From: Ruminococcus sp.
GTDB lineage: Bacteria; Bacillota; Clostridia; Oscillospirales; Ruminococcaceae
Length of the DNA: 56,809 bases
NCBI GenBank assembly: GCA_017542125.1
Contig: JAFXXU010000055.1
Span: 1-56,809 of the forward strand
Direction: 5' to 3'
The notes beneath the pieces were generated by a model. It worked only from the letters and a program-made list of their open reading frames with translations, had not been told where the DNA came from and did no database searches. The stretch's first letter is position 1. The number at the start of each line of letters is the position of its first letter. The position numbers were made by a program, and so were the translations under genes. Shown here in pieces: positions 6,062 through 56,809 of the stretch.

Positions 6062-6297
6062 GGAAAAACAAAACACGCTGCCGCCCCCTATAGGGACGAC
6101 AGCGTCGTGATACCACCCTAATTGCAGAGCACATAGCTCTACCTCTTATCTTCTCCCTAACGCAGAGGCTACGCGCCGCCTTTATCAGCGGCGAGCTCGG
6201 AGGTGTCCTTCGGTCGCTCGTCTGCGGACGCTTTCACCGTACCGTCCATCGCTATATGCAGACTGTTGAGCTGCCTACTCTCCCCGTCACAGCATTT
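6062..6297 (-). promoter_or_regulatory. T-box leader upstream of hisS, with overlapping Asp/His specifier
   Basis: On the minus strand the T-box sequence AGGGTGGTATCACGA is at 6119-6105. A GC-rich terminator hairpin and the tail TTTTGTTTTT follow (about 6108-6062). Upstream is a stem I with the GGGGAGAGTA bulge region, the distal arm GTCTGC...GCAGAC, and the 3' specifier strand GAAGGACACCTCC. The specifier region reads GACAC (6207-6203), containing GAC (Asp) followed in an overlapping frame by CAC (His). T-boxes bind uncharged tRNA and favour antitermination. The genes controlled would be hisS and, through the same transcript, aspS. The exact 5' end is not determined and no convincing promoter was found just upstream. 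Confidence 0.9.
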
Positions 6298-6323
6298 CGT
6301 ATATTACCGCACAAGCGCTTAGC

Positions 6324-10737: not shown

Positions 10738-10741
10738 TCCT

Positions 10742-11188
10742 ATGATATACGAATATACAACAAGCTCCTCCGCTGAGACCATAGAGCTGGGCAGGAGGAT
10801 AGGTGAGCGGCTCCGGGGCGGCGACTGCATCGCCTACATCGGCGGGTTGGGTGCAGGTAAGACCACTATGACCCGGGGCATAGCCATGGGCATGGGTCTT
10901 GAGGACGATGTCACCAGCCCTACCTTCACCCTTGTCAACGAGTACAGGGGGGCGGGGCTGTCGCTGATACATTTCGATATGTACCGCATAAGCTCCTCAG
11001 CAGACCTGGAGACCACGGGCTTTTTCGACTATATGGACGAGGACACCGTCCTGGCTGTGGAATGGAGCGAAAACACCGCCGATGCCCTCCCGCCGGGGAC
11101 GGTGACTGTCACCCTGGAGCGGACGGGTGACGAGACCAGAAGAATAACGATAAACGGAGATGAACGCTTTGCTGACATTGGGGATTGA
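10742..11188 (+). CDS. tsaE: tRNA threonylcarbamoyladenosine biosynthesis ATPase TsaE
   Basis: This is the ATPase partner of the TsaB-TsaD complex that makes t6A at position 37 of ANN-decoding tRNAs. The 148 residues contain the P-loop GGLGAGKTT (about 34-42), TSPTFTLVNEY (about 59-69) and HFDMYR (about 77-82), all characteristic of TsaE. It overlaps tsaB by 29 bp, so the two are co-translated. tsaD and tsaC are not in the window. Confidence 0.95.
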   Translation: MIYEYTTSSSAETIELGRRIGERLRGGDCIAYIGGLGAGKTTMTRGIAMGMGLEDDVTSPTFTLVNEYRGAGLSLIHFDMYRISSSADLETTGFFDYMDEDTVLAVEWSENTADALPPGTVTVTLERTGDETRRITINGDERFADIGD

Positions 11189-11855
11189 CACCTCCGGCAA
11201 GGTAGCCTCCTGCGCTGTTGCCGACAGCGGGAAGCTGCTCGCCGAGAAGATACTTTACACCAAGCTGACCCACTCGCAGATAATCCTGCCTATGGCGGAG
11301 GAGCTCCTGCGGGACTGCGGGCTCACCTTTTCCGACCTGGAGGCGGTGGTCTGCGCGGCGGGGCCGGGATCGTACACAGGTCTGCGGATAGGTCTGGCTG
11401 CGGTCAAGGGGATAGTTATGGGGGCGCCTCATCTGAAATGCGCCGCAGTTTCCACCCTTGAAGCTCTCTGCCTGAACGTTTCGGCTTTTCAGGGGCGGAT
11501 AGTTCCCGTGATGTACGCAAGGCCGGGAGTGGTATACGCCGGGGAATACGAGAGCCGCCGGGGCAGGGTAACTCCCCTCACCGAGGACAGAGTCACCGAC
11601 GAGAAGGAGTTCTTTGAAGCCCTGGACACCTCATCCCCCGTAATGCTCACCGGTGACCGCTGCGTTGAGATCAAGCAGCTCTATTTTGCCGATAATGAAA
11701 ACGTCCTTGCGGCTCCCGCCGCAGACAGGCTCCAGCGGGCATCCTCCCTCTGTGCGGCATTTCTTGCAGACCCCGGGAGAGCCCTTCCCCCGGAAGCGCT
11801 GGAGGCAAGCTATCTTCAAGCCACCAAGGCCGAAAAAACCCACGGGGCGAAATAG
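11160..11855 (+). CDS. tsaB: tRNA threonylcarbamoyladenosine biosynthesis protein TsaB
   Basis: This is the non-catalytic ASKHA-fold partner that binds TsaD and TsaE in t6A synthesis. The 231-residue protein begins LTLGIDTSGKVASCAV (the ATPase-fold phosphate-1-like strand). It carries the family signature AAGPGSYTGLRIGLAAVKG (about residues 66-84). The ATG lies inside the 3' end of tsaE, with GGAG just before it. A strong bidirectional terminator follows at 11894-11920. Confidence 0.95.
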   Translation: MNALLTLGIDTSGKVASCAVADSGKLLAEKILYTKLTHSQIILPMAEELLRDCGLTFSDLEAVVCAAGPGSYTGLRIGLAAVKGIVMGAPHLKCAAVSTLEALCLNVSAFQGRIVPVMYARPGVVYAGEYESRRGRVTPLTEDRVTDEKEFFEALDTSSPVMLTGDRCVEIKQLYFADNENVLAAPAADRLQRASSLCAAFLADPGRALPPEALEASYLQATKAEKTHGAK

Positions 11856-11888
11856 CGCCGTATCGGCAGACAATAATACTCATCATAC

Positions 11889-11935
11889 AAAAACGCCCGG
11901 AGGCTCGATGCCTCCGGGCGCTGTGTTTTTTTATT
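11889..11935. terminator. Bidirectional terminator between tsaB and glgP
   Basis: A perfect 11-bp stem CGCCCGGAGGC / GCCTCCGGGCG (11894-11904 and 11910-11920) has a TCGAT loop. It is followed by a T-run on the plus strand and preceded by an A-run. It serves both convergent genes. Confidence 0.92.
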
Positions 11936-14351: not shown

Positions 14352-14518
14352 ACAATTACCTCCTATTGACGGTACAGCTGCAAATGGGCAGATGTGCCGT
14401 TTCATATGTCTGCAAAAGCAACATATCTGATATATTATATCATAAAAACATCCGACATTCAACCCCATACTGTGAATAGGTTAAAAAATTTTGGTGCTTA
14501 TTCCCTTATGAGGCTTGT

Positions 14519-14577
14519 CGAAAACGTTTGCGATACTTATACAATCTAATTATATGTTGATTATGTCCAAATGTCAA
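14519..14577 (-). promoter_or_regulatory. glgP promoter with LacI/MalR-type operator
   Basis: The minus strand has a perfect consensus promoter, TTGACA (14577-14572), 17 bp, TATAAT (14554-14549). About ten bases after the likely start lies CGCAAACGTTTTCG (14532-14519), with the AAACGTTT core of LacI-family operators such as MalR. An operator at that place would block elongation or promoter escape. The remaining 14352-14661 gap holds the leader and a small hairpin at 14593-14613 (GATCCTA...TAGGATC). Confidence 0.8.
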
Positions 14578-14661
14578 GCGGGAGATTTATGAGATCCTAC
14601 AATTCATAGGATCGTACACAATTCACAACAAGGAGAATAAATTTTTGGGGAATATCACATC

Positions 14662-15351
14662 TTATTTCAGCCTTGCCCGTATATTCTTCCAATCCGGGCA
14701 GTATTTTCCCACCAGAGCCCAGAACTCTACGCTGTGATCCATATGGACCAGATGGCAGAGCTCGTGTATTATAACATAATCTATACAGTCCCGGGGGTAA
14801 TAGACGATGTTGGCGTTTATCGAGATATTCCCGCCGGAGGAGCATCTCCCCCAGCTGGCGGACATCCTCTTGACCGTGACCTTTTTGGGGGTGAGCCCTG
14901 TCAGCGCCGAGAGCCTTTCCATACTCTCTCTGATAACGGCGAGGGTCTGCCCGTCGATGGCTTTCTTTGCCTGAGAAGCCACATACCTGCCGTCGTACCC
15001 CTCACGGACGCTGATCTCAAGTCGGCCTTCGGTAAATCTGGGAGGCCGGTAGCTCCCGGCGGGAACGCAGGTGACGGTATAGACCTCCCCTGCCAGAGTG
15101 AAGCTCTCGCCCTCGGCGTAGGTGACGGGAGGCACAGCCTCGCTGCCTGAACTTTTTTCTATGCTCCGGAGAATCCAGTCCGCCTTTTCTTTGAGGAAGG
15201 CCACGCCCCGGGCTTCGTCGCCGTTCTGGGGCAGCTTCAGCACTACCCTGCCGTTCTTGACGGCTATATAGATATTCTTACGCCTGCCCCTGTCGATGAC
15301 GTATTCCAGCGTTCTGCCGTCGCTCAGGGTCAGCTTTCGCAGCTCTGACAT
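14662..15351 (-). CDS. YgjP-like / M48-type metallopeptidase domain protein
   Basis: The protein has about 229 residues from the ATG at 15351, chosen because AGGTGAG lies just upstream. The zinc motif HELCHLVHMDHSVEFW (about residues 189-204) is the hallmark of the YgjP (DUF45) metal-hydrolase family. It is preceded by YVIIHELCHL and a conserved WGRCSSGGNISIN segment. It should be cytoplasmic, since no signal peptide or membrane helix is visible. Its substrate is unknown. A terminator separates it from the gene upstream. Confidence 0.88.
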   Translation of the reverse strand: MSELRKLTLSDGRTLEYVIDRGRRKNIYIAVKNGRVVLKLPQNGDEARGVAFLKEKADWILRSIEKSSGSEAVPPVTYAEGESFTLAGEVYTVTCVPAGSYRPPRFTEGRLEISVREGYDGRYVASQAKKAIDGQTLAVIRESMERLSALTGLTPKKVTVKRMSASWGRCSSGGNISINANIVYYPRDCIDYVIIHELCHLVHMDHSVEFWALVGKYCPDWKNIRARLK

Positions 15352-15365
15352 TATCTCACCTGCCT

Positions 15366-15397
15366 GTAAAAAAGGAGCGGGCAGCGCCACGCTCCTT
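15366..15397 (-). terminator. Terminator of the SH3-like protein gene
   Basis: AAGGAGCG (15372-15379) pairs with CGCTCCTT (15390-15397). On the minus strand the hairpin is followed by a run of seven T. It ends the transcript of the gene at 15411-15980. Confidence 0.88.
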
Positions 15398-15410
15398 ATG
15401 GTTTCAAATG

Positions 15411-15980
15411 TTACTGTTCAGCCTCAGCGGGCTGTTCCTCCTCCTGACCCTCGACGGGTGCTTCTTCATCCAAAGCCTCCAGAGGGTTCTCGCGGTTTAT
15501 CTCGGCGGAGCTTAAATAGTCCTCCAGAACATAACCTGTATAGGTAGTGCCGTCGCCGTTGAGGAAAGAAACCTGGCAGAAGCCGTCGGCTCTGCGCTCC
15601 AGCACCTCAACCTTGATATTCGGCGACATACAGATAAGGTGCGCCGACTCAGCCTGGGGCTCTGCAAGCAGCTGGACGTAGGTGATTATATAGGCATATT
15701 CGGGTCCTGCGGGCACGGCGGGCTCCGTTTCGGCCAGTGTGCTCGAAGCGGTAACGGCTGCGCTCTCTGCGGGGGCAGAGGTGGCTGCCGTGGTGGTGGT
15801 ATGGGAGATAGTTCCCGTATCTATCCCGGCGGGGACATCCTTGCTGTTGCTGGAGAATATGCTCTTGGAGAGCAGCAGTATCAATGCTACGCATATCGCG
15901 GTGATAACCAGAATAGTTATCACATTGACGGCGTTAGCCGACTGGAGGATATTCGATTTTTCGCTGTCTTTCCTGCTCAT
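15411..15980 (-). CDS. Membrane-anchored SH3-like domain protein
   Basis: The 189-residue protein has a short cytosolic N-terminus and one transmembrane helix (about 18-40, VITILVITAICVALILLL). A Thr/Ser/Ala-rich linker (about 55-90) and a bacterial SH3-like domain (about 95-160, YIITYVQLLAEPQAES...GFCQVSFLNGDGTTYTGYV) follow. The tail is rich in Glu and Pro. Such SH3 domains often bind peptidoglycan peptides, so a wall-linked role is plausible. It is transcribed alone, from a perfect consensus promoter at 16028-16056 to the terminator at 15366-15397. Confidence 0.82.
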   Translation of the reverse strand: MSRKDSEKSNILQSANAVNVITILVITAICVALILLLSKSIFSSNSKDVPAGIDTGTISHTTTTAATSAPAESAAVTASSTLAETEPAVPAGPEYAYIITYVQLLAEPQAESAHLICMSPNIKVEVLERRADGFCQVSFLNGDGTTYTGYVLEDYLSSAEINRENPLEALDEEAPVEGQEEEQPAEAEQ

Positions 15981-16027
15981 TCGGCATCACCTCCGGCTTT
16001 GCGGCACCTTGCCGCAGGGTATGATAT

Positions 16028-16056
16028 ATTATAGCACATTCCGCGCCCCTTGTCAA
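16028..16056 (-). promoter_or_regulatory. Consensus promoter of the SH3-like protein gene
   Basis: TTGACA (16056-16051), 17 bp, TATAAT (16033-16028) on the minus strand. Both hexamers are perfect. The start would lie about 40 bp before the ATG. Confidence 0.88.
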
Positions 16057-16068
16057 ATGGGGATCGGA

Positions 16069-16698
16069 TTATTTCGTTCCGAAGATCCTGTCGCCGGCAT
16101 CGCCGAGGCCGGGGACGATATAGGCGTCGCCGTTGAGCTTTTCATCCAGGCAGCCCACATAGATATCAATATCGGGGTGGGCGTCGTGGAGGGCCTTGAG
16201 CCCCTCGGGGGCTGCTATGACGCACATATACTTGATATTCTTACAGCCCTTTGCCTTGATGAGATCCACCGCAGCGATAGCAGAGCCGCCTGTTGCCAGC
16301 ATAGGGTCGGGGAGGATAACGAGCCTTTCCTTGATGCTGTCTGGCAGCTTGCAGAAATACTCGTGGGGCTCGTGGGTCTCCTCATCGCGGTAGAGGCCTA
16401 TATGCCCCACCTTAGCGGAGGGCACGAGGGCGAGTATGCCGTTCACCATACCGAGGCCGGCTCTGAGTATGGGCACCACAGCCAGCTTCTTTCCGGAGAG
16501 CATGGGCACCTCTGCTCTGGTGATAGGGGTCTTGACGCTCACCAGCTCGGTGGGCAGGTCGCGGAGGGCCTCATAGCCCATAAGCATAGCGACCTCCTCC
16601 ACTAGTATGCGGAAGTCTCTGGTACCTGTATTCTCATCCCGCATAAGCGAGATCTTATGCCTTATCAGGGGGTGATCTATTATCATTACCTTATTCAT
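16069..16698 (-). CDS. upp: Uracil phosphoribosyltransferase
   Basis: It salvages uracil by joining it to PRPP to form UMP in the cytoplasm. The 209 residues match the usual length. Signatures are [14 protein letters not shown] (about 74-87), the PRPP loop [18 protein letters not shown] (about 126-143) and the uracil-binding [18 protein letters not shown] at the C-terminus. It lies between mscL and the SH3-like gene. A terminator follows mscL, so upp probably has its own start or relies on readthrough. Confidence 0.97.
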
Positions 16699-16727
16699 AT
16701 CCTGAAACCTCTCTCATCCTGCCAAAA

Positions 16728-16757
16728 CAAAGGGGCGGACTTTCGCCTGCCCCTTTG
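16728..16757 (-). terminator. Terminator downstream of mscL
   Basis: CAAAGGGGC pairs with GCCCCTTTG (16728-16736 and 16749-16757), enclosing a GC-rich inner loop. On the minus strand it runs into TTTGTTTT. It lies between mscL and upp. Confidence 0.85.
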
Positions 16758-16774
16758 ATCTTTGGTTTGCATTT

Positions 16775-17182
16775 TTAGTCGAGCTGCGAAGTGCAGTTGG
16801 GGCATCTGGTAGCCTCGATGTTGATATCGGTCTTGCAGAAGGGGCAGGTCTTGATAGCGGGAGGAGCGACCTCTTCCTTCTTCTTGCCGATGCTCATCAG
16901 CTTGTTCACGGCCTTCATCATCAGGAAGATACACAGTGCCATGATTATGAAATTGATGACAGCTGTGATGAAATCACCGTAGTTGATGTACTGACCGCCG
17001 TAGATCTTGATCCTGCCGCCGACCTCGGCGCCGCCGAGACCGTTGATAAGCGGGTTGATGAAATCCTCGGTGAAGGCGGTAACGATATTACCGAAAGCTC
17101 CGCCGATGATAACACCTATGGCAAGATCCATTACATTGCCTTTGAGTGCAAATGCCTTGAACTCTTCTAAAAATTTCTTCAT
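16775..17182 (-). CDS. mscL: Large-conductance mechanosensitive channel with C-terminal zinc ribbon
   Basis: It forms a pentameric membrane channel that opens under turgor stress. The protein has 135 residues from the ATG at 17182 (GAGGTGG upstream). It begins MKKFLEEFKAFALKGNVMDLAIGVIIGGAFGNIV, the conserved first helix, and has a second transmembrane helix (about 68-90). After the charged helix KKKEE, where MscL normally ends in a helix bundle, the protein continues with CPFCKTDINIEATRCPNC (about residues 112-129), a four-cysteine zinc ribbon. Its promoter is at 17214-17242. Confidence 0.95.
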   Translation of the reverse strand: MKKFLEEFKAFALKGNVMDLAIGVIIGGAFGNIVTAFTEDFINPLINGLGGAEVGGRIKIYGGQYINYGDFITAVINFIIMALCIFLMMKAVNKLMSIGKKKEEVAPPAIKTCPFCKTDINIEATRCPNCTSQLD

Positions 17183-17213
17183 TGCTGACCACCTCAAATC
17201 AAAAATTTTAATT

Positions 17214-17242
17214 ATTATAGCATAATATTCTCACAAATGCAA
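17214..17242 (-). promoter_or_regulatory. Promoter of mscL
   Basis: TTGCAT (17242-17237), 17 bp, TATAAT (17219-17214) on the minus strand, about 30 bp before the mscL start. Confidence 0.78.
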
Positions 17243-17686
17243 CAGTTTTTTTGTAAAAAAACGAAATAATTCTTATTTTTTCTCAGACTTAGGTAAAAGC
17301 TGTTCTTTCCTGTTGAAATACTGCTGCTTGTGATGTAATGATCAGGAAAAAGCATCACCACCGGAGCCAATTGACCAGCCCGTACAGCGAACAATTCTCC
17401 ATACCCAAACGCTCCAAGCCCCCAAAGAAGCCCTGACGCCAAAAAGCACCCACCGATCTGCACTTCCCGCCCGCCCGAGATGGTCAATCCGAGTGTTCCA
17501 TTCGGATGGCGCAAAGCGCAGCTCCCTTCAAAAAGGGGGGCGACAAAGGGGTGATCAGGAGTGGGGGGCGCCCCTCGAACCCAAGTGGCGTATGATAAAG
17601 AAGCTATCACATCTAATAATAACAGACAATACAGCGGGTCAAACTCCATCAGACTAAGTTCGCAGACATACGCCATTCTTCATATA
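17243..17686. other. Gene-free stretch between mscL and repeat copy 2
   Basis: The stretch is about 440 bp with no believable gene. One frame stays open through most of it, but the composition (Pro/Gly-rich, no ribosome site) looks non-coding. It holds a G-run region with the palindrome GGGGCGCCCC near 17565-17574 and the sequence TGATCAGGA twice (about 17337 and 17551). It may be remnant or structural RNA sequence. I cannot name it. Confidence 0.4.
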
Positions 17687-17858
17687 GGCAACACCGCACG
17701 ACCCCTGTGCGTCAGATGCGAAGTCCAGGTTTTCGTCAGATTGCCTAAATTCGATGCAGGCGGGCTGGCGCCCGGCAAGGAGAATTTGGGTAATATGACG
17801 GAAAGCTGGCAAGCAGATGGCGTGCAGAGGCGTCAGCCGCGGGTTGTGCGGTGTTGCC
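17687..17858 (+). mobile_element. MITE-like repeat, copy 2 (complete)
   Basis: The 172-bp element starts GGCAACACCGCACGACCC and ends GGGTTGTGCGGTGTTGCC, a terminal inverted repeat of about 18 bp. It is flanked by TATA on both sides, a probable 4-bp target duplication. It encodes no transposase. It is about 98% identical, in the opposite orientation, to the copy at 23112-23283. Confidence 0.87.
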
Positions 17859-17944
17859 TATATAATTATACCAAATAGATCACCAAAATTCAAGTGTTTT
17901 CAGAATGATCGCAGGGCGTTTATATAGTTTTTGCCGCGGGATCA

Positions 17945-18613
17945 CTACTCTACCCCGTGTTTGACCAGCACCTTTCTTTTCCAAGCCTCCGCCTTGTTCC
18001 TTGCCGCCTCGGTGTCATAGAAAAACTCATCTGGATCGTCAGCGAAGTCCAGCCAGCAGATCTTTCCGTAAGCCGTGCCGTAGTATCTGACAGCTCCCAT
18101 TTCCCGCGTCAGGCAGGAGACCAGATAGCTGTGCCCGGGCTTCATATAATCCGCACCGCTCATATCAAGTACAGTCAGCAGCTGCTCGCCGGGCATATCG
18201 GCGTCAAGGGTAGAGTTAAAGCGGTACTGCTCCTTCGGCAGACGCCGGAGGCCTCCGTCTATAATGAGTTCAACGCTTTCTCCGACTTCGGGACAGATAC
18301 CGCTTATCTGCTTATCCACTGTTATTCTTTGCTTGCAGACACCGTTTGCACAGGTCAAGCTGTCCTCTGCCGTGCAGACGAAAATCGCCTGAGAATAGCT
18401 GTTATCGTACATCCTGCCTGCGACGTCAAATGCGGTGAAAGCGCTGTCGGGAACCATATCAACGGTGACGGTGCAGTCGATGTGTGTGTTCCTGATATCT
18501 TCATAACGGCTTATGGAGGCTATGCCTGCATCTGGTATCCCGGAGCGGATAACGATGCCGGCGATCACCGCCGCCGTGACAATAAGCACCTGAACAGAAA
18601 TAAACAGCTTCAT
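17945..18613 (-). CDS. Hypothetical secreted/anchored protein of the ABC operon
   Basis: The protein has about 222 residues from the ATG at 18613, which overlaps the ATPase stop by ATGA. An N-terminal hydrophobic helix (about 3-22) acts as signal or anchor. The rest is extracytoplasmic, with a Cys pair (CANGVCKQ, about residues 88-95) that could form a disulfide. It is the last gene of the LytTR/ABC module and may be an accessory or substrate-recognition protein of the transporter. No known domain was recognised. Confidence 0.75.
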   Translation of the reverse strand: MKLFISVQVLIVTAAVIAGIVIRSGIPDAGIASISRYEDIRNTHIDCTVTVDMVPDSAFTAFDVAGRMYDNSYSQAIFVCTAEDSLTCANGVCKQRITVDKQISGICPEVGESVELIIDGGLRRLPKEQYRFNSTLDADMPGEQLLTVLDMSGADYMKPGHSYLVSCLTREMGAVRYYGTAYGKICWLDFADDPDEFFYDTEAARNKAEAWKRKVLVKHGVE

Positions 18614-23111: not shown

Positions 23112-23283
23112 GGCAACACCGCACAACCCGCGGCTGACGCCTCTGCACGCCATATGCTTGCCAGCTTTCCGTCATATTACCCAAATTCTCCTTGCCGGGC
23201 GCCAGCCCGCCTGCGTCGAATTTAGGCAATCTGACGAAAACCTGGACTTCGCATCTGACGCACAGGGGTTGTGCGGTGTTGCC
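23112..23283 (-). mobile_element. MITE-like repeat, copy 3 (complete, inverted)
   Basis: This 172-bp element is the reverse complement of copy 2 with only about three differences. It is flanked by TTAA on both sides, a clear 4-bp target duplication. It has the same 18-bp terminal inverted repeat and no coding capacity. Together with copy 2 it brackets the LytTR/ABC module (17945-23023). Confidence 0.9.
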
Positions 23284-23520
23284 TTAAGTAAGGAGGACTG
23301 GCTGATCGAGCGAATCGAGATCCACGCTCCCGACAGATCAAGCCGGTCACAGGCGGCAGAAAGAAAAGGCTGCATAGAGCGTATCTGCGCAGTCTTTGCT
23401 TCAAAACCTAAAAGCTTCTTTATTGATACCCATTTTCCTTCGGAGACACCCTCTCTCGGCGTGCGACGTTACGGAAATCGCTCGCCCGCTCTTCCTGTGT
23501 CTGCGGAGAAGTACAGGCGT

Positions 23521-30862: not shown

Positions 30863-30938
30863 TGGGATATAGCCAAGTGGTAAGGCAGAGGGTTTTGATC
30901 CCTCCATTCCGCTGGTTCGAGTCCAGCTATCCCAGCCA
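30863..30938 (+). tRNA. tRNA-Gln (anticodon TTG)
   Basis: The acceptor arm TGGGATA/TATCCCA pairs over seven bases. The anticodon stem GAGGG/CCCTC encloses the loop TTTTGAT, giving anticodon TTG. The T arm CTGGTTCGAGTCCAG is regular. The CCA end is encoded (30936-30938). Confidence 0.96.
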
Positions 30939-30957
30939 ACCTTTTCCCGAAATATAC

Positions 30958-31033
30958 TGGGGTATAGCCAAGCGGTAAGGCACCGGATTCTGATTCCGGC
31001 ATTTCAAAGGTTCAAATCCTTTTACCCCAGCCA
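30958..31033 (+). tRNA. tRNA-Gln (anticodon CTG)
   Basis: The acceptor arm TGGGGTA/TACCCCA pairs over seven bases. The anticodon stem CCGGA/TCCGG encloses TTCTGAT, giving anticodon CTG. The T arm AAAGGTTCAAATCCTTT is regular and CCA is encoded. The two tRNAs cover both Gln codons from one transcript. Confidence 0.96.
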
Positions 31034-47749: not shown

Positions 47750-47830
47750 TTTCCTTCGGGACGGAAATATGAAAACTATACAAAATATTTCCAACCATCT
47801 ATTGCAAAACAGGTGATAATGTGTTATAAT
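47750..47830 (+). promoter_or_regulatory. Promoter of the NRPS operon
   Basis: TTGCAA (47802-47807), 17 bp, TATAAT (47825-47830), with transcription from about 47837. That excludes an in-frame ATG at 47813 and supports the start at 47876. An inverted repeat TTTCC...GGAAA lies upstream at 47750-47767 and could be a regulator site. Confidence 0.75.
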
Positions 47831-47875
47831 GTAGTTTGGAATATTATTATCCCTTTACGGAACGGAGGACTAATT

Positions 47876-50800
47876 ATGAACAGGATACTCTCAATGCTGA
47901 AAGAAAGCATCGCCCGCTGCCCTGACCGCGCCGCGCTTACCGATATGCAGGACGGCAGGAGTCTTACCTATTCCGAACTGGATACCCTTGCCCGTAGGAT
48001 AGCCGCAAAGCTCATCCGCTGCGGTGCTGTCGGCGGCAGATATGTCACGGTAGAGCTGCCCCGGAGCCTGGAATACATCGCAGCACAGCTGGGCGTGTGG
48101 TACGCCGGGTGCGCCTATGCCCCCCTCTCGGACGAATACCCGGAGGACAGGCTTGCATACATCCGCGAAAACTGCGATGCCGCAGCTGTCATCAACGAGA
48201 GATTTATGCGGGGCATCGAAATGGAGGAGCCTGTGACCGACACCGCCTTCCCCGACGAGAGCGCTCCTGCCCTGCTGAACTACACCTCCGGCTCCACAGG
48301 AAGACCCAAAGGCGTTATGCACGGCTTTGTCAGCATATCCGACTCGGTGCTGCGCTACAATAAGGAGATGGGGCTCACCGATGACAGCAACCATGCCATC
48401 ACCGCTTCGCTCACCTTTATAGTATCGGTGCAGTCGGTATGGGGGCCTTTATCCATGGGGATCAAGGCCACTCTGGTGCCCTTTGAGGCGATGCGCGACC
48501 CCTCGCTGCTGGCTGAGGGCTTTGACCGCTTCGGAGTGACCCACTCCTTTATCAGCCCGAAGGTGCTGAAGCTGTTCAAGAAGCAGGGTACTTCCCTGCG
48601 GCGCGTGCTTGTGGGCGGCGAGAGAGTCTCCGACAAATACGACGAAGGCTTCGGTATCATCTGCGCTTACGGACAGACCGAGACCACTGCCGCAGCCGTT
48701 ACATTCAGGGTAGATAAGGCATACCCAAATACTCCCATAGGCAAGCCTATGGAGGGTGTGTTCGCCTATGTCCTCGACGAGGAGGGCAATGAGGCTTCGG
48801 AGGGCGAGCTTTGCCTGACGGGGCATTTCGCCTCGGGCTATCTGGGGCTGCCGGAGCAGACCGAAAAGACCTTTGTTCAGAACCCCTTCTCCGACCGGGA
48901 CGGTATGGATACAATGATCCGCACCGGCGACCTGGTCCGTGTGGATGAGAACGGTGATCTCATCTACCTCAACCGCCGCGACTGGATGGTGAAGATCAAC
49001 GGTCAGCGCGTTGAGCCGGGAGAGATAGAGGCTGTCATCAGAGAAGTTGAGGGCGTGCGCGAGGCTGCTGTCCGGGACTTCAAGAACAGCTACGGGCAGG
49101 TATATCTTGCGGCCTACTATGTGGGCGGCGAGACCGTTACCGACGAATATGTAAAGGCCTGCATCTCCGACAAGCTGCCGCCATATATGCTGCCGGCATT
49201 CTTTATCAAGCTGGAAAAGCTGCCCCTTAACCAGAACGGCAAGCTGGACCGCTCTGCTCTGCCCGAGCCCGAGGCAGGCTCCTTCAAGGCGGAGTACGCC
49301 GAGCCCGTCACCGATTTGCAGAAGGCGATCTGCGCTGCATTCGAGAAGGTCCTGGGCATCGACGGCATCGGCATCGACGATTCCTTCTTCGCTCTGGGCG
49401 GCGACTCCATCCGCTCTGCTGCGGCTGCGGCGGAATGCTCCGCCTTCGGCATACGCACGGCGGATATCTTCGCGGGCATCACACCGCGAGGCATAGAGAA
49501 GCTGATGCTGGGCAAGGCCTCGGCACAGGCTATCGTCAGAAAGGCCGAGCGGGAGACCGTTTATCCCCTCACCCCCTACGAGCGGGGTATGTATCTTGAA
49601 CAGAAGATGGATCCCGACTCCACTGTTTACCTGCTGAACCTTATGTATGATATCAAGGGCTCCGACACCGAGAGCATCAAGGCAGCCCTGAATACAGTAT
49701 TCTCCCGCCACGAGGCGCTGCACTCCACTTACAGCGAGAAATCCGGCAGACCCGTCCGCGTTGTGACGGAGCAGCTGCCGGAGATAAAGGTCAAGGCTGC
49801 TGCTTCCTCCGATGAGGCTCACGCCGAAGGTGAGAGCTATGCCGAGCCCTTTGACCTCAATGCGGGGATACCCGTTCTGCCCACGATCTACGAGCTGCCC
49901 GACGGCTCGGCAGTGGTCCATATAGCCATACACCACATCGCCTTTGACGGCGGCTCGGCGGGGACGCTTTTCAGCGAGCTTGCCGCTGCCCTTGAGGGCA
50001 GGGAGCTTGCCGCTCCGGGGCTTGACCTGTCGGATATCTATGAGCAGAGCCTTGACCGCAGCTTCGAGAGCGGGCTCGAATACTACCGCAAAGTATTTGC
50101 CGACGGTGTTCCCGTCACCGATCTGCCGCTGCGGGGCAAGAGGCCGGTGAACCACCCCCTCTCCGACAGGGAGCTGAGCTTCGCTGTCTGCGGCGAGGAG
50201 CTGGCTGCACTTGAACGTACAGCCAAGAGCTTCGGGGTTACCGAGTTTGAGCTGCTGTTCTCGGCGGCGGCGCTGACGGCTGCGAAATACACCGCCTCGG
50301 AGGATATCGTGCTGGGCATACCCACCAATATGCGCCCCAACGGCGCCGAGGATGTTATCGGTATGTTCGTAAACACCGCGCCTGTCAGGATACGCCCTGT
50401 CAGGAAGCTGGCGCTGAATGAATACCTCTCGCAGACCAGTGAGGCCGTCCGCAGCGTGACCTACGGCGCAGACCTGCCCTTTGAGGATGTGGTCCGCGAG
50501 TTCGTCAAGCAGCGGGACAGCTCCCGCAACCCCATGTTCGATATAAGCGTGAACTATCTGCTTACGCCTGCGGCCTACGACAGCGAAAGGCTGCATATGG
50601 AGTTCTCCGTTCCGCTTCAGAAAATGAGCCGCGACCTTGCCATAAACATCCGCAGGGATCCCCGGGGGCTCAGGTTCACCGTTCAGTATTCCTCCGAGCT
50701 CTTTGAGGACAGCATCGCTGAAAACTTCGCGGAGCAGCTTCGCTATACCCTCAAGCTGATGAGCAGCGGAGCCGCAACTGTTGCCGAGGCCTCTGAACTG

Positions 50801-53800
50801 CCAAAGGCTCAGGAACTGGAGCTTATCAAATACTCCTGCGAGGCAAAGACGGATATACCCGTTACTCTGCTGCACAAGCTCTTTGAAGCCCGTGTTGCAG
50901 AAAACCCCGACCGCGCGGCCCTCATTGCGGTGGATGCGGAGTACACCTACCGCCAGCTGGACGAAAAGGCCAACATCGCAGCCAACGGGCTCATTGCCAG
51001 AGGCGTGACCGTGGGCTCCAGCGTGGCGATACTGCTGCCCAGAGTTTCGGCATTCTTTGCCTGTATGTTCGGCGTGAACAAGGCGGGTGCGGCCTTCATC
51101 CCCTGCGACCCCCAGTACCCTGCCGACCGTATCAACCATATCATCACAGATTCGGGGGCTTCCTTCATCATCACCACCAAGGACAAGCTCCCCGACTACC
51201 CTGCCGAGAAAGCCATAGATGTTAACGAGCTGCTCTCGGACACCGATACCTCCTCCCCCGATGTTCAGATGGAGGACAGTGAGCTCTCGTATATGATCTA
51301 CACCTCCGGCTCCACCGGAAAGCCCAAGGGAGTAATGCTGCACCACAAGGGTATCTGCAACTATCTCTATCCTCACCCGGCAAACATCCATATGAAATAC
51401 ATTAGCGATCACGTCGAGAACTATCTCTCGGTGACGACCGTTTCCTTTGATATGTCCTTCAAGGAGCACGCGGCGGCTCTCTGCAACGGCAAGACGCTGA
51501 TCTTCGCCGGCGATCAGCAGATGAACGACCCCCGTGAGCTGGCGGAGCTTATGGACAAATACCACGCCGACTGCATCAACGCGACGCCCTCACGGCTTGC
51601 CCAGTATATGGAGTACGAGCCCTTCTGCAAGGCGCTGGCAAGGTGCAGGCTGGTAATGTCAGGCGGCGAGGGCTACCCCATGAGCCTGAGAGACCACATC
51701 TCCAAGCTCTGCCCCGACACCCGCATAATGAACACCTACGGCCCCACCGAGATAACCGTTTCCTGCAACGCTGCGGATCTGACTGATGCAGACCACATCA
51801 GCGTGGGCAGACCTCTGCTCAATTACACCGAGTACATCGTTGACAAGTTCGGCGCACTCTCCCCCTGCGGAGCTGTAGGCGAGCTGCTGATCGGCGGCAT
51901 CGGTGTGGCCAGAGGCTACAAGAACCTGGAGCAGATGACCGCAGAGCGTTTCATCGACTTCGGCGGCGAGAGGGTCTACCGCTCCGGCGACTACGCCAAG
52001 TGGGACAGGGACGGCAATGTAATGATCCTGGGCAGGCTTGACAATCAGGTCAAGCTGAGAGGTCTGCGAATAGAGCTTGATGAGATAATCGGGCTCATAG
52101 AAGCACAGCCTTACATCAAGAAGGCAGCAGTGGTCATCCGCAAGATCAGCGGGCAGGAGAACCTCTGCGCCTATTTCACCGCCGAAAGGCAGATAGATAT
52201 AGAAGAGCTCCGGGCAGAGCTGAAAAAGCACCTGACCCATTATATGGTGCCTACCGCCTATCTGCAAATGGCTGAGATGCCTATGACCCCCAACGGCAAG
52301 ACAGACTTAAAGCGTCTGCCCGAGCCTGTTTCGGTGAGCGCCGGTGAGTACGCCGAGCCCGCCAACGACACAGAGCGGTTCTTCTGCGAGGCCTTTGGCA
52401 AGGCGCTGAAGCTTGACCGCGTCGGGGCAACGGATGATTTCTTCGAGATCGGCGGCACCTCGCTGATCGTTACCTCGGTGGTGCTGGCAGCCTCGGAGGC
52501 AGGCTACCCCCTGACCTACGGCGACGTATTCAAATGCACCACTCCCCGCACCCTGGCGGCGCTGTTCACCAAGGAGGAGGCGCATCAGAGCGGCAGCCTC
52601 TTCGACTTCGACAACTATGACTACACTAAGATAAACGAGCTGCTCTCCCGCAACACGATAGAGAGCTTTATCGCCGGCGAGAGCCGTGAACTGGGCAACA
52701 TTATGATAACCGGAGCCACCGGATATATGGGCGCTCACCTGCTGGCGCAGTACCTTGACGAGGAAAAAGGCACCGCCTGGTGCATGATCCGCAAGGGCAG
52801 GTATCCCGATGCGGCCAGCAGGATGAAGAATATGCTCTTCTACTACTTCGGCAGCCGCTACAACGGCATCTTCGATCAGCGCGTGAAGGTGCTGGACGGC
52901 GATGTTACCGACTACAAGTTCTTCGAGCCCTTTGAGGCTCTGCCCATCGACACGGTATTCAACTGCGCGGCGAATGTAAAGCACTTCTCCAGCGGCACGG
53001 ATATCGAGGACATCAACGTGGGCGGTGCGGTCAACTGCGTGAAGCTCTGCGAGAAGCTGGGGGCAAGGCTCATACACTTCTCCACCATATCCGTATCCGG
53101 CACCACCGAGGACATCACCAAGCTGAGCCGCACGGAGCTGGATGAGCAGTCCCTCTACTTCGGGCAGACAAACGACAACAAGTACACCTCCTCAAAGCTG
53201 ATGGGCGAGAGAGTCGTCCTGGAGGGTGCTGCCGAGAAGGGTCTGGACGCGAAGGTCATCAGAGTGGGCACGCTTGCCGCCCGTGAATCCGACGGTGAGT
53301 TCCAGATAAACTTCCTCACCAACAGCTTTATGGGACGTCTGCGCTCTTACAGTATGCTGGGCTGCTTCCCCTATCAGATGATAGAGAACCAGGTCTGCAT
53401 GGGCCCCATCGACGTTTCCTGTCAGGCATTCTTAAAGCTTGCCCGCACGCCCAAGGAGTGCTGTCTGTTCAACGCGGTCAACAACCACACCCTCCCTCTG
53501 GGGGATATCATCAGAAGGATGAACGCCGGCGGAATGGATATCCGCTTCGTAGAGTACGGCGAGTTCGCGGCGGCAGTAGCCGAGGCGCATCAGGATCCCG
53601 ACAAGGCTGCCATACTCCAGAGCATGGTGGCATATATGGCCCCCGCACAGGGGAACAAGGTCATCAGCCTGCCCTTCTCGGCTCACTACACCACACAGGT
53701 GCTTGCAAGGCTGGGCTTCTTCTGGAACGCCAGCAACGAGCGGTATGTTGACGACTTCATTAACGTGCTCGGAGGTTTCAGCTTCTTTGACAGCGACAAT

Positions 53801-53812
53801 CTGAGCAGATAA
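47876..53812 (+). CDS. Two-module nonribosomal peptide synthetase, A-T-C-A-T-R
   Basis: The 1,978-residue synthetase starts at the ATG with ACGGAGGAC upstream. Domains in order: A1 (about 10-465; YTSGSTGRPKG at 136, RTGDL at 349, NQNGKLDR at 452), T1 (GGDSIR, Ser511), C (about 560-955; HHIAFDG at 686-692), A2 (about 998-1475; YTSGSTGKPKG at 1142, YRSGDYA at 1368), T2 (GGTSL, Ser1529) and a thioester reductase (about 1605-1975; GATGYMG near 1613, YTSSK at 1770-1774). It should couple two building blocks and release the chain reductively as an aldehyde or alcohol. In A1 the position of the amino-group-binding Asp appears to be Ile182, while A2 keeps Asp1192. There is no starter C domain and no epimerase. 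No phosphopantetheinyl transferase is in the window. Confidence 0.95.
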   Translation: MNRILSMLKESIARCPDRAALTDMQDGRSLTYSELDTLARRIAAKLIRCGAVGGRYVTVELPRSLEYIAAQLGVWYAGCAYAPLSDEYPEDRLAYIRENCDAAAVINERFMRGIEMEEPVTDTAFPDESAPALLNYTSGSTGRPKGVMHGFVSISDSVLRYNKEMGLTDDSNHAITASLTFIVSVQSVWGPLSMGIKATLVPFEAMRDPSLLAEGFDRFGVTHSFISPKVLKLFKKQGTSLRRVLVGGERVSDKYDEGFGIICAYGQTETTAAAVTFRVDKAYPNTPIGKPMEGVFAYVLDEEGNEASEGELCLTGHFASGYLGLPEQTEKTFVQNPFSDRDGMDTMIRTGDLVRVDENGDLIYLNRRDWMVKINGQRVEPGEIEAVIREVEGVREAAVRDFKNSYGQVYLAAYYVGGETVTDEYVKACISDKLPPYMLPAFFIKLEKLPLNQNGKLDRSALPEPEAGSFKAEYAEPVTDLQKAICAAFEKVLGIDGIGIDDSFFALGGDSIRSAAAAAECSAFGIRTADIFAGITPRGIEKLMLGKASAQAIVRKAERETVYPLTPYERGMYLEQKMDPDSTVYLLNLMYDIKGSDTESIKAALNTVFSRHEALHSTYSEKSGRPVRVVTEQLPEIKVKAAASSDEAHAEGESYAEPFDLNAGIPVLPTIYELPDGSAVVHIAIHHIAFDGGSAGTLFSELAAALEGRELAAPGLDLSDIYEQSLDRSFESGLEYYRKVFADGVPVTDLPLRGKRPVNHPLSDRELSFAVCGEELAALERTAKSFGVTEFELLFSAAALTAAKYTASEDIVLGIPTNMRPNGAEDVIGMFVNTAPVRIRPVRKLALNEYLSQTSEAVRSVTYGADLPFEDVVREFVKQRDSSRNPMFDISVNYLLTPAAYDSERLHMEFSVPLQKMSRDLAINIRRDPRGLRFTVQYSSELFEDSIAENFAEQLRYTLKLMSSGAATVAEASELPKAQELELIKYSCEAKTDIPVTLLHKLFEARVAENPDRAALIAVDAEYTYRQLDEKANIAANGLIARGVTVGSSVAILLPRVSAFFACMFGVNKAGAAFIPCDPQYPADRINHIITDSGASFIITTKDKLPDYPAEKAIDVNELLSDTDTSSPDVQMEDSELSYMIYTSGSTGKPKGVMLHHKGICNYLYPHPANIHMKYISDHVENYLSVTTVSFDMSFKEHAAALCNGKTLIFAGDQQMNDPRELAELMDKYHADCINATPSRLAQYMEYEPFCKALARCRLVMSGGEGYPMSLRDHISKLCPDTRIMNTYGPTEITVSCNAADLTDADHISVGRPLLNYTEYIVDKFGALSPCGAVGELLIGGIGVARGYKNLEQMTAERFIDFGGERVYRSGDYAKWDRDGNVMILGRLDNQVKLRGLRIELDEIIGLIEAQPYIKKAAVVIRKISGQENLCAYFTAERQIDIEELRAELKKHLTHYMVPTAYLQMAEMPMTPNGKTDLKRLPEPVSVSAGEYAEPANDTERFFCEAFGKALKLDRVGATDDFFEIGGTSLIVTSVVLAASEAGYPLTYGDVFKCTTPRTLAALFTKEEAHQSGSLFDFDNYDYTKINELLSRNTIESFIAGESRELGNIMITGATGYMGAHLLAQYLDEEKGTAWCMIRKGRYPDAASRMKNMLFYYFGSRYNGIFDQRVKVLDGDVTDYKFFEPFEALPIDTVFNCAANVKHFSSGTDIEDINVGGAVNCVKLCEKLGARLIHFSTISVSGTTEDITKLSRTELDEQSLYFGQTNDNKYTSSKLMGERVVLEGAAEKGLDAKVIRVGTLAARESDGEFQINFLTNSFMGRLRSYSMLGCFPYQMIENQVCMGPIDVSCQAFLKLARTPKECCLFNAVNNHTLPLGDIIRRMNAGGMDIRFVEYGEFAAAVAEAHQDPDKAAILQSMVAYMAPAQGNKVISLPFSAHYTTQVLARLGFFWNASNERYVDDFINVLGGFSFFDSDNLSR

Positions 53813-53821
53813 GGAGAACCT

Positions 53822-55567
53822 ATGGAAAATACAGGTCTGCTCATAAGCAAAAAATACCGCAGCCTGCTGATCTCCACGCTGGCGATGTCGGCTTCGACCT
53901 ACATCTCATCCATACTCGACGGGATCATGGTGGGACGGATACTCGGCACCGCCCAGCTCTCGGCTATCAGCCTGACGACATCGATAGTGTTCCTCATAAG
54001 CATACCCATCTCCCTTTTTACCTTCGGCGGCAACACCCTGGCGGTAATGCACAAGGGCAGGCGGGACAATGCCTCGGCGGACAAGGTGTTCACCCTTTCC
54101 TTTGCGGCAGCCATGCTTATGAGCATCGCTATGGCGCTGATCGGTATAGCTCTGATCGAGCCGGTGGCGCAGCTGCTCACCAAGGGCAACGAGCTTAAGG
54201 AATACGTCTCCGATTACCTGCTGCCGCTGTGGTCGCTGGCTCCGCTGACAGCCCTGCTGACCGTCACCGCCTCATTCGCAAGGACGGACGGCAAGCGTCA
54301 GCTGGCGACGGCTCTGCCCATAGTTTCAAACATCATCAACCTGCTCTGCGACCTGCTGTTCATGAAGGTGATCGGCACCGGCATCGCAGGCGCGGGCTGG
54401 GCGACGGTGGTGGGATACTCTGTGGGCGGGTTAATGACCTTCCGCTACTACCTCTCCGGCAAGCGGACGGTGCATTTCACCAAAGCTGCCATCAAGGAGC
54501 TCAGGCTGCTGGGTGGCATCGTCACCACGGGGCTGCCCTCGGCGCTCATATACCTCTGCAACTTCCTGAGGCTCTTCTTCGTCAATGACATAATCATAAC
54601 CTCAACGGGCGTCATCGGCGCGAAGATAGCCTCTGTAACCTTCTCGCTCAACAGCCTTGCATTCATATTCGTGGAGGGCACCTCGATGACGCTGCTGCCC
54701 ATACTGGGAGCCCTAAACGGCGAGCGGGACATCAAGGGGCAAAAAACAGCCCTCCGCTACGGTATGTTTATGACGATGCTGATGTGCGGAGCGGTGTTCA
54801 TTATCAGCGTGGCGTTCCCGACGCAGCTGGCCTCCCTCTACGGTCTTACCGAGCCGGAGGCGGTGGACATCTTCGCCGTGACCTTCCGCATCGTATCGCT
54901 GAACGTTCTGATGATAGGAATAATCTACGTTATGCGTTCCTTCTTCCAGGCAACGGGTCAGAAGATGATCGCCAACTTTCTGGTAGTGGTGGACGGCTTC
55001 CTGTCGGTGGTGCCGCTGATGTATCTTCTCTCGAAGATCGACATCTACTGGCTGTGGGCGTCCTTCCCCTTCTCTAAGCTGATAACCCTTACGCTTATGC
55101 TGGCGGCTATGGCCATAGCCAAGAAAAAGCAGCACAAGCAAAGCCTCCTGCTGCTGGGCACCGATGAGGGCAAGGTGCTGAGCTTCTCGGTGAAAAACGA
55201 TGAAGCCGAGGCATCGAATGCAGCGAGAAAGGCCATAGATTTCTGCCGTGAGAACGGCGTTGACCCCCGCATAGCCAATGCCATAGGCGTTACAGCGGAG
55301 GAACTCTGCCAGAACATCGCCGTCTATTCAAAGACCCCGCAGAACCCCTCGGTAGATATCCTCATCAGGATACTCGACGACAGCGTGACCATACGCCTGC
55401 GCGACAACGGCCCCGCCTTTGACCCGACCCAGTATATCGACAACAGCGGGCAGGAGATAACGGGGCTCTCCCTGGTGCGCTCTCTGTCCTCGGGAATAGA
55501 GCACAACCGCGTGCTGGAAATGAACCTGACCTCGGTAACTGTTTCGAGGCAGGAAGAGGGAGCCTGA
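53822..55567 (+). CDS. MATE-family exporter fused to an RsbW-like ATPase domain
   Basis: The 581-residue protein starts with a MATE transporter of about 12 helices (residues 1-440): MVGRILGTAQLSAISL near the start and MRSFFQATGQKMIANFLVVVDG in the second half. A C-terminal GHKL ATPase domain of the anti-sigma-factor kinase type (about 450-575) follows. Its N box is TAEELCQNIAVYSK (about 490) and its G1-like box RLRDNGPAFDP (about 525). A further GLSLVRSL segment is present. It follows the NRPS by 9 bp with AAGGAGA upstream, so it probably exports the product. The attached ATPase domain could regulate transport or signal through phosphorylation. Confidence 0.9.
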   Translation: MENTGLLISKKYRSLLISTLAMSASTYISSILDGIMVGRILGTAQLSAISLTTSIVFLISIPISLFTFGGNTLAVMHKGRRDNASADKVFTLSFAAAMLMSIAMALIGIALIEPVAQLLTKGNELKEYVSDYLLPLWSLAPLTALLTVTASFARTDGKRQLATALPIVSNIINLLCDLLFMKVIGTGIAGAGWATVVGYSVGGLMTFRYYLSGKRTVHFTKAAIKELRLLGGIVTTGLPSALIYLCNFLRLFFVNDIIITSTGVIGAKIASVTFSLNSLAFIFVEGTSMTLLPILGALNGERDIKGQKTALRYGMFMTMLMCGAVFIISVAFPTQLASLYGLTEPEAVDIFAVTFRIVSLNVLMIGIIYVMRSFFQATGQKMIANFLVVVDGFLSVVPLMYLLSKIDIYWLWASFPFSKLITLTLMLAAMAIAKKKQHKQSLLLLGTDEGKVLSFSVKNDEAEASNAARKAIDFCRENGVDPRIANAIGVTAEELCQNIAVYSKTPQNPSVDILIRILDDSVTIRLRDNGPAFDPTQYIDNSGQEITGLSLVRSLSSGIEHNRVLEMNLTSVTVSRQEEGA

Positions 55568-55573
55568 CTTCTC

Positions 55574-56650
55574 ATGCGCAAGCATTATATCGACAATCTT
55601 CGGTGGATGTTCATTCTGCTGCTCATACCATATCACGCGGCTCAGGCCTGGGTGGTATGGGATGAACCGAATTACATAGTCCACGGGCAGAGCAGGGCGA
55701 TATGCAGCATAATAGTTTTTTTCAGCCCTTTCTTTATGCCGCTGCTCTTCCTGCTGGCGGGGATGAGCACCCGCTTCGCTCTTCAGAAGCGAACGTACAG
55801 GCAGTATGCTCTGGAGAGGGTAAAGAGGCTGCTGGTACCCTTCATATTCGGGATCCTGACCCTGGTGCCGGTGATGACCTACCTGGCTGACAAGCACCAT
55901 ACCGGCTACAGCGGCAGCTTCTTTGAACACTACTTGGTATTCTTCACCAGGTGGACGGATCTCTCCGGAGCCGACGGCGGGTTTTCCTGCGGGCAGTTCT
56001 GGTTCCTGCTCTATCTGTTCGTGATATCCTTTATAGCTCTCGGCATCATAGCCCTGCAGAGGAGATTCCTCCCCGACATCAAAGGGGACCTGCCCCTGCC
56101 GGTGCTGATACTGCTGGGGGCGCCCCTGCCTCTTTTATCCGACCTGCTCTCGGTGGGGGGAAAGAGCCTGGCGGAGTACACCTACATCTTCCTGATAGGT
56201 TACTATGTTTTTTCAAACGAGTCCGTTACCGACAGGCTGACGCGGTTCGGTGAGCTGTTCCTCATCATCGGCATTGCTGCCGCGGCGCTGGATGTTTACC
56301 TTTTCGTCTGGTCGGGGGGATCATACCCCAAGCTGAACACGGCGGCGAAGTTCACTGCTGAATGGTCGATGCTGCTGGGGCTCATCGGCACCGGCAAAAA
56401 GCGGCTGGAGTTTTCGGGCAGGGTGACACGGTTTATGTCCGCAAGGTCGTTCCCCTATTTCAGCCTGCATTTTGTGTGGGTGATAGTTATGCAGTATCTT
56501 GTAACTGATGCTTTCGCCGGCAATGTGCTGCTGCTCTATTTCGTCCCGGTGGTAGCGGCATTCGCTCTTACGGCGGTGTGCTGCGAGATCTTTCTGAGAG
56601 TTCCCGTCCTCAGCTTCCTGATCGGCGCCAAGCCCCTCCGAAAGACTTGA
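55574..56650 (+). CDS. Membrane acyltransferase (acyltransferase-3 / OafA-like)
   Basis: The 358-residue protein has about ten hydrophobic helices. It opens with HYIDNLRWMFILLLIPYHAA (about 3-22), the acyltransferase-3 signature with the conserved His. SFPYFSLHFVWVIVMQYLV (about 293-311) is a second family mark. These enzymes add acyl groups to sugars, lipids or peptides at the membrane. It lies 6 bp after the MATE fusion gene and should be co-transcribed, so it may modify the NRPS product or a cell-surface molecule that protects the producer. No terminator was seen before repeat copy 4. Confidence 0.9.
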   Translation: MRKHYIDNLRWMFILLLIPYHAAQAWVVWDEPNYIVHGQSRAICSIIVFFSPFFMPLLFLLAGMSTRFALQKRTYRQYALERVKRLLVPFIFGILTLVPVMTYLADKHHTGYSGSFFEHYLVFFTRWTDLSGADGGFSCGQFWFLLYLFVISFIALGIIALQRRFLPDIKGDLPLPVLILLGAPLPLLSDLLSVGGKSLAEYTYIFLIGYYVFSNESVTDRLTRFGELFLIIGIAAAALDVYLFVWSGGSYPKLNTAAKFTAEWSMLLGLIGTGKKRLEFSGRVTRFMSARSFPYFSLHFVWVIVMQYLVTDAFAGNVLLLYFVPVVAAFALTAVCCEIFLRVPVLSFLIGAKPLRKT

Positions 56651-56672
56651 AAAACTGCCTGAAATATGCTAG

Positions 56673-56809
56673 GGCAACACCGCACGACCCCTGTGCGTCA
56701 GATGCGAAGTCCAGGTTTTCGTCAGATTGCCTAAATTCGACGCAGGCGGGCTGGCGCCCGGCAAGGAGAATTTGGGTAATATGACGGATAAGCCGGTCGT
56801 CAAGCAGGC
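56673..56809 (+). mobile_element. MITE-like repeat, copy 4 (truncated by window end)
   Basis: It begins with the full left terminal repeat GGCAACACCGCACGACCC, 22 bp after the acyltransferase stop and preceded by CTAG. It matches copies 2 and 3 for about 115 bp. It then follows the longer variant also seen in copy 1 (TAAGCCGGTCGTCAAGCAGG) to the end of the window. No gene is encoded. Its 3' end is missing. Confidence 0.88.

Follow-up and report, generated by a model that had tools for sequence, protein, structure and literature searches.

What does a two-module peptide synthetase make, and what is the ATPase-like domain at the end of the exporter encoded beside it? Both questions are raised by a three-gene operon near one end of contig JAFXXU010000055.1 of Ruminococcus sp. 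(GenBank assembly GCA_017542125.1; Clostridia, Ruminococcaceae). The stretch of 56,809 nucleotides analysed here, termed the window, is this contig, C64 of the 91 contigs in a 2.9-Mb assembly. The operon encodes a nonribosomal peptide synthetase (NRPS), an exporter of the MATE family with a C-terminal HATPase_c_2 domain, and a membrane acyltransferase. An earlier note on the sequence had predicted a two-residue aldehyde or alcohol, comparable to the dipeptide aldehydes and pyrazinones of gut Firmicutes, and had counted a MATE-ATPase fusion and the acyltransferase among the parts of the set. Comparison with related loci shows that the conserved unit is the synthetase together with a kinase-tailed exporter and a partner switch of STAS and SpoIIE proteins.

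Conservation of a synthetase, exporter and switch unit

Species genomes of GTDB were scanned for relatives of the synthetase, which gave 289 stretches encoding one, and the best 80 of these 289 were analysed. A full six-domain synthetase is encoded at 53 of the 80 loci, the other 27 (fragments and differently built synthetases) being excluded from the counts. At least 2 kb of sequence follows the synthetase gene at 45 of the 53 loci (less than 2 kb at 8), and at least 5 kb at 38. Among the 45, a MATE gene lies downstream of the NRPS gene in 31; it is a fusion in all 31 and starts within 24 bp in 27. Where at least 5 kb is available the fusion is present at 28 of the 38 loci, and a STAS gene lies within 5 kb in 27 of these 28, accompanied by a SpoIIE gene in 25. 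The 2.9-Mb genome of the window bacterium itself contains 12 STAS matches (11 over the cut-off) and 11 SpoIIE matches, so few that chance linkage would be rare. A common gene order is NRPS, MATE-HATPase, SpoIIE-HATPase, PGA_cap and STAS, and another is STAS, NRPS, MATE-HATPase, SpoIIE-HATPase and STAS. No further common gene family was found within 8 kb of the NRPS gene, the largest occurring at 6 of 54 loci; with extra families limited to this extent, no sigma-factor gene was seen in the conserved set, although no sigma-factor profile was run on the loci.

The sample names of many relatives are ruminant (goat, sheep, roe deer, red deer, reindeer) or RUG, the latter presumably rumen metagenome-assembled genomes, and horse faeces also occur, in keeping with the gut Firmicute setting that the earlier note had assumed. 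Named relatives include Ruminococcus sp. FC2018 (locus L145), with the complete set, and Lachnospiraceae AC2029 (L123), with a version that has ABC transporters. The cassette probably belongs to gut, mostly rumen-type, Clostridia, and the window bacterium is a gut bacterium, probably from the rumen.

Nature of the exporter tail

The transporter part of the window exporter is matched by MatE at 93.3 bits (cut-off 24.9), and its tail by HATPase_c_2, as are all 40 exporter tails (39 relatives and the window) searched with Pfam in one alignment, from which one further locus was left out because of its strand. A structural model of the window tail, with a mean predicted local distance difference test score (pLDDT) of 83 and a predicted template modelling score (pTM) of 0.79, has its 17 best PDB matches exclusively in anti-sigma-factor entries (SpoIIAB, RsbW, UsfX and a SigF complex), at TM-scores of 0.58-0.71 by query length. 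In 67 other fusions, a redundant set in which some genomes are counted twice, the residues expected of such a kinase are largely retained: in the N-box, Glu in 67 and Asn in 53, and in G1, Asp in 64 and Gly in 55. By predicted fold and motifs, the exporter tail is thus a SpoIIAB/RsbW-type kinase domain. An ABC-type transport ATPase was ruled out by Pfam and the predicted fold, so that the fusion seen by the earlier note is real, whereas its 'ATPase' is an anti-sigma-type kinase domain and not a transport motor; the note had missed both the kinase nature of the tail and its STAS and SpoIIE partners. When the tail was searched with phmmer against the sequences in the PDB, three proteins named RBL or OT3 matched, none with a single stretch over the threshold, and we read these matches as chance.

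Partner-switch genes in the genus

Fifteen other genomes of the window's genus were searched for the synthetase, which is whole in four (73-79% identity) and split across two contigs in a fifth. One of them (G253) has a STAS gene and a SpoIIE-HATPase gene divergent upstream of the NRPS gene and the MATE fusion downstream, and G257 has the same arrangement spread over two contigs. In the window's own genome a STAS-SpoIIE pair opens contig C44. Among the loci found, its STAS (71-77% identity) and SpoIIE (48-58%) proteins are the best own-genome matches to the NRPS-side pairs of four same-genus genomes, and judged by these identities they are orthologs of those pairs. Two strong hydrophobic segments, separated by about 170-205 residues as expected of a membrane receptor, are present in each of the four SpoIIE proteins of the genus that were examined. 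In SpoIIE proteins of the FC2018 type, several hydrophobic segments lie in the N-terminal part.

The end of C64 and the start of C44 share a 48-bp identity. This was discarded as proof of a join, since the stretch lies within a repeat that is found at many contig ends and has about 40 or more copies, and the same-genus loci gave no match to any of the tested genes that flank the C44 pair or the window operon. That the two contigs adjoin is possible, but a guess. The repeat itself (about 140 bp or more, with apparently inverted ends) also occurs in the window at 17687-17816 and 23161-23286, and looks like a miniature mobile element.

Substrates and product of the synthetase

Pfam finds two AMP-binding, two PP-binding, one Condensation and one NAD_binding_4 (reductase) domain in the window synthetase. 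Together with the positions of its intact motifs (HHxxxDG at 687, GGDS at 509, GGTS at 1527, GxxGxxG at 1614 and YxxxK at 1771, numbered from codon 47873), they confirm the order adenylation, thiolation, condensation, adenylation, thiolation and reductase (A-T-C-A-T-R) given by the earlier note, that is, two modules and a terminal R domain. The ten-position pocket code of the first adenylation domain (A1) is IVQFVVAAAK, with Lys517 and no Asp235, and that of the second (A2) is DMKNVSTVSK, with both residues present. According to one paper, all A domains that activate alpha-amino acids have Asp235 and Lys517 (PMC12283262), and according to another the Asp235 of alpha-keto-acid A domains is typically swapped for an aliphatic residue (PMC10949194). 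Residue 235 of A1 in the relatives is Val in 57, Ile in 9, Ala in 7 and Asp in 2 of 75 rows, the last two (L104 and L148) coming from proteins in which no A1 domain is seen and whose code is that of A2. Given the aliphatic residue and the published rules, the starter loaded by A1 is probably a keto acid or another acyl acid rather than an ordinary alpha-amino acid. Pyrazinone formation depends on a first residue with a free alpha-amine, and would therefore be blocked by such a starter. With Asp235 lacking in 73 of the 75 rows and the remaining two coming from A2, the synthetase is unlikely to make an ordinary dipeptide aldehyde or pyrazinone, and from the codes an acyl-capped or cyclic amino-aldehyde or alcohol appears the likelier product.

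The A2 pocket is nearly invariant among 77 A2 domains (after removal of the reference and one misassigned row), all 77 having Asp235 and Lys239, and one conserved residue is therefore predicted in the product; by comparison with other codes, Lys239 may hint at an acidic side chain. In two three-module relatives that were examined, the first code is similar, the last is of the same kind, and a DAQD-type module is inserted.

A rival explanation, close to the earlier note's comparison, is an ordinary gut dipeptide aldehyde or pyrazinone NRPS, which would make a protease-inhibiting aldehyde from two alpha-amino acids; on this view the exporter tail would be a passive or regulatory appendage without particular significance. 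The window synthetase resembles the enzymes for ruminopeptin and aureusimine (AusA) in its two modules, domain order, reductive release and Firmicute host; dipeptide aldehydes from gut bacteria, ruminopeptin among them, are on record (PMC12327764), and the best NCBIfam model, the AusA equivalog NF047350, spans nearly the whole window protein. Its score of 933.7 bits, however, is far under the cut-off of 2500, the aliphatic residue at position 235 of A1 speaks against a first alpha-amino acid, the exporter tail retains kinase residues, and partner-switch genes lie nearby in relatives. We judge this explanation unlikely: the note's two-module synthetase with reductive release and a dedicated exporter is supported, the dipeptide-aldehyde or pyrazinone route is not.

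The acyl-acid reading of A1 has a counter-example in the same genome. A second NRPS, on contig C29, is a C-A-T-C-A-T-R protein of 2632 aa whose gene overlaps its own MATE-HATPase gene (8877-18522 of locus L034). The first A domain of this synthetase also lacks Asp235, and it belongs to a C-A-T module, which must supply a nucleophile, so that a missing Asp235 need not mean a missing amine. The A1 building block may thus have its amine elsewhere, as in an aminobenzoate or a beta-amino acid. If A1 loaded an aminobenzoate-type acid and A2 an amino acid, the released aldehyde could close on the aryl amine to a benzodiazepine-like cyclic imine, which is the logic of pyrrolobenzodiazepine synthetases. 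These synthetases, too, combine a C-A-T-R elongation module with a loading A domain that seems not to take alpha-amino acids, so that the Asp235-less A1, the single elongation module and the R domain would fit, and the C29 module suggests that such A domains can handle a nucleophile-bearing block. They differ in that the window has one polypeptide and no precursor pathway was seen, since no additional gene family recurs at more than 6 of the 54 loci. The A1 pocket matches no code known to us, and we know of no proline code like that of A2. We consider a benzodiazepine-like cyclic imine an improbable product.

MATE-HATPase fusions at other loci

The window's genome encodes five MATE-HATPase proteins. 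Besides the one behind the second NRPS, a fusion on contig C63 follows a gene for an AMP-binding and APH protein, that on C37 is directly preceded by a STAS gene, and that on C90 has a divergent gene for a STAS protein. Twenty fusion loci from the order were compared, four from this genome and 16 chosen among the longest matches; one lies beside an NRPS. A STAS gene is found within 5 kb at 10 of the 20, and a STAS or SpoIIE gene at 13 (counted by hand). Neighbouring genes include those for GH3, GNAT and formyl-transferase enzymes.

Individual loci show a variety of arrangements. On C63 (L035, 2906-7169) the frame of the AMP-binding and APH-kinase protein, 831 aa, overlaps the downstream MATE-HATPase frame. 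Elsewhere a STAS-APH-HATPase fusion (L048, 7229-8815) or a 434-aa protein with a STAS domain (L037, 7482-8786) is encoded beside the MATE-HATPase gene, and at L042 (2213-7255) the MATE-HATPase gene is followed by genes for a GH3-family enzyme and a SpoIIE phosphatase.

Operon structure and flanking genes

The features of the window operon and its surroundings are collected in Table 1. The synthetase starts at an in-frame ATG (47876) after a Shine-Dalgarno-like GGAACGGAGG. As the earlier note stated, the three genes lie tightly spaced on one strand, with open reading frame coordinates leaving 9 bp between the NRPS and the MATE fusion and 6 bp between the fusion and the acyltransferase. The contig ends 159 bp past the acyltransferase gene, inside the high-copy repeat, which hides the end of the operon. 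The predicted promoter scores 10/12; the region has two such sites against 0.9 expected in shuffles, which is weak alone, and upstream of the synthetase 19 of 54 related loci reach at least 10/12, compared with 2 of 54 when each region is shuffled once. Two matches to phosphopantetheinyl transferases were found in the genome, one of them in a 235-codon frame, which we take to be the size expected for an Sfp-type enzyme.

Table 1. Positions of the operon and neighbouring features in the window.
Feature	Position	Strand	Basis or remark
NRPS, 1978 aa, A1-T-C-A2-T-R	47876..53812	+	Open reading frame 47813-53812, Pfam, motifs
MATE exporter with C-terminal HATPase_c_2, 581 aa	53822..55567	+	Pfam, predicted fold
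Kinase-like stretch, exporter residues 437-581	55130..55567	+	N-box E494xxxN498, G1 D528xG530
Acyl_transf_3 membrane acyltransferase, 358 aa	55574..56650	+	Pfam
AraC-type HTH_18 and GGDEF protein, 279 aa	46805..47644	-	Divergent from NRPS, GGDEF motif intact, Pfam
Sigma-70-like promoter TTGCAA-17-TATAAT	47802..47830	+	TG ahead of second hexamer, upstream of NRPS
Part of high-copy repeat	56670..56809	.	Contig end, about 40 or more genome copies

Neither the acyltransferase nor the divergent regulator is a core part of the cassette. The acyltransferase gene does follow the fusion as described earlier, but none of the 53 six-domain loci has one beside the NRPS gene (phmmer, one query, E 1e-4, so that very divergent ones could be missed; 8 of the 53 have less than 2 kb downstream), which does not support it as a built-in part of the set. 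The regulator likewise sits next door as the note had it and failed as a conserved element: within 5 kb of the NRPS gene a related helix-turn-helix domain occurs in 0 of 45 loci and GGDEF in 2 of 45. The regulator also bears on where the switch might act. On one account the switch would act on transcription or on cyclic di-GMP as in SiaABCD of Pseudomonas aeruginosa, the AraC-GGDEF protein being its output and the exporter tail only anchoring it. The gene adjoins the operon with its GGDEF motif intact, and the SiaABCD partner switch, which acts without a sigma factor, uses a STAS-like protein to activate a diguanylate cyclase (PMC7278518). The 2/45 and 0/45 counts, however, mean that there is no conserved output of this kind, and the C44 SpoIIE protein, at 39.3 bits, scores far below the 700 of the SiaA model. 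We give this account little chance, and prefer a switch that would act on export or biosynthesis.

The window further contains a T-box leader at 6089-6299 on the minus strand (Rfam RF00230, 102.7 bits) and a tandem tRNA-Gln pair at 30863-31033 with anticodons TTG and CTG.

Proposed mechanism

The arrangement suggests that export of the product is wired to a signal switch. We propose that the NRPS product is exported by the dedicated MATE protein and that export, or its reporting, is tied to the partner switch, a proposal that we regard as probable though by no means assured, and that we infer from the anatomy of the loci, the predicted fold, the motifs and the gene linkage. Module 1 would load a starter acid, probably no ordinary alpha-amino acid, which would be condensed with the one conserved amino acid picked by A2, and the R domain would free an aldehyde or alcohol from the second carrier. 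The cytoplasmic kinase tail of the MATE protein would most likely phosphorylate or bind the STAS protein, and the membrane SpoIIE phosphatase, with a predicted outside-facing region in the window's genus, would dephosphorylate it. Export, or the reporting of export, would thereby be coupled to the switch with no sigma factor in the conserved set, and the target of the switch would be export or biosynthesis. A fuller version is conceivable but tentative: the exporter would itself be the switch kinase, setting STAS phosphorylation by transport, the SpoIIE receptor would sense the exported molecule or its context outside, STAS would act on export or biosynthesis without a sigma factor, and the same exporter-kinase would be reused with GH3, GNAT and AMP-binding-APH enzymes in other Clostridia.

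Several observations weigh against this proposal. The six-domain loci are kin and not independent of one another, and MATE is absent from 10 of the 38 loci with at least 5 kb downstream, of which 5 have ABC transporters; by a separate count, 5 of the 10 have neither STAS nor SpoIIE within 5 kb. (Examples of the ABC type encode a pair of ABC proteins, PGA_cap and a ligase that is a distant relative of PaaK, with a phosphopantetheinyl transferase at some loci.) No STAS or SpoIIE gene was found on the window contig. Within the genus, neither a STAS nor a SpoIIE gene was found near the NRPS and fusion of G249, and in G245 and G250 the divergent STAS-SpoIIE pair is present but no MATE gene lies beside the NRPS, so that parts of the cassette can separate. 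The N-box Asn is absent in 14 of the 67 fusions, the C29 paralog among them, and some tails may therefore not be kinases; at two of the 20 fusion loci (L040 and L041) no tail match was found at the threshold used. A weaker third hydrophobic segment is present in three of the four SpoIIE proteins tested (G253, G250 and G257).

Relation to known systems and significance

The RsbW/SpoIIAB, STAS and SpoIIE/RsbU switches share with the cassette the fold predicted for the tail and the linkage of STAS and SpoIIE genes, seen in most fused relatives with enough room. They differ in that here the kinase is fused to a MATE protein, no sigma factor was seen in the conserved set, and a biosynthetic enzyme belongs to it. 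SiaABCD resembles the cassette in having a non-sigma output, a membrane PP2C phosphatase, a kinase and a STAS-like protein, and a GGDEF gene lies near the window operon; unlike SiaABCD, the cassette has an NRPS and an exporter, its GGDEF gene is not conserved, and the SiaA model is not matched. A survey of rumen NRPSs reports 5,346 clusters, and the window's synthetase type is not described in its accessible part (PMC8241843). No earlier description of a MATE-HATPase fusion or of partner switching with an NRPS was found among the listed titles of CC-licensed PMC papers, and PMC11747023 contains none of the terms looked for. The type of synthetase is known; for its coupling to an anti-sigma-type kinase-tailed exporter and a partner switch, no account was found in the CC-licensed PMC literature searched.

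The cassette occurs in many uncultured Clostridia and in FC2018, with the ABC version in AC2029, and because these two carry it, it is testable in isolates. If the proposal is true, export of a natural product would be joined to partner switching in these bacteria, and the cassette would offer them a means of linking metabolite secretion to a signal.

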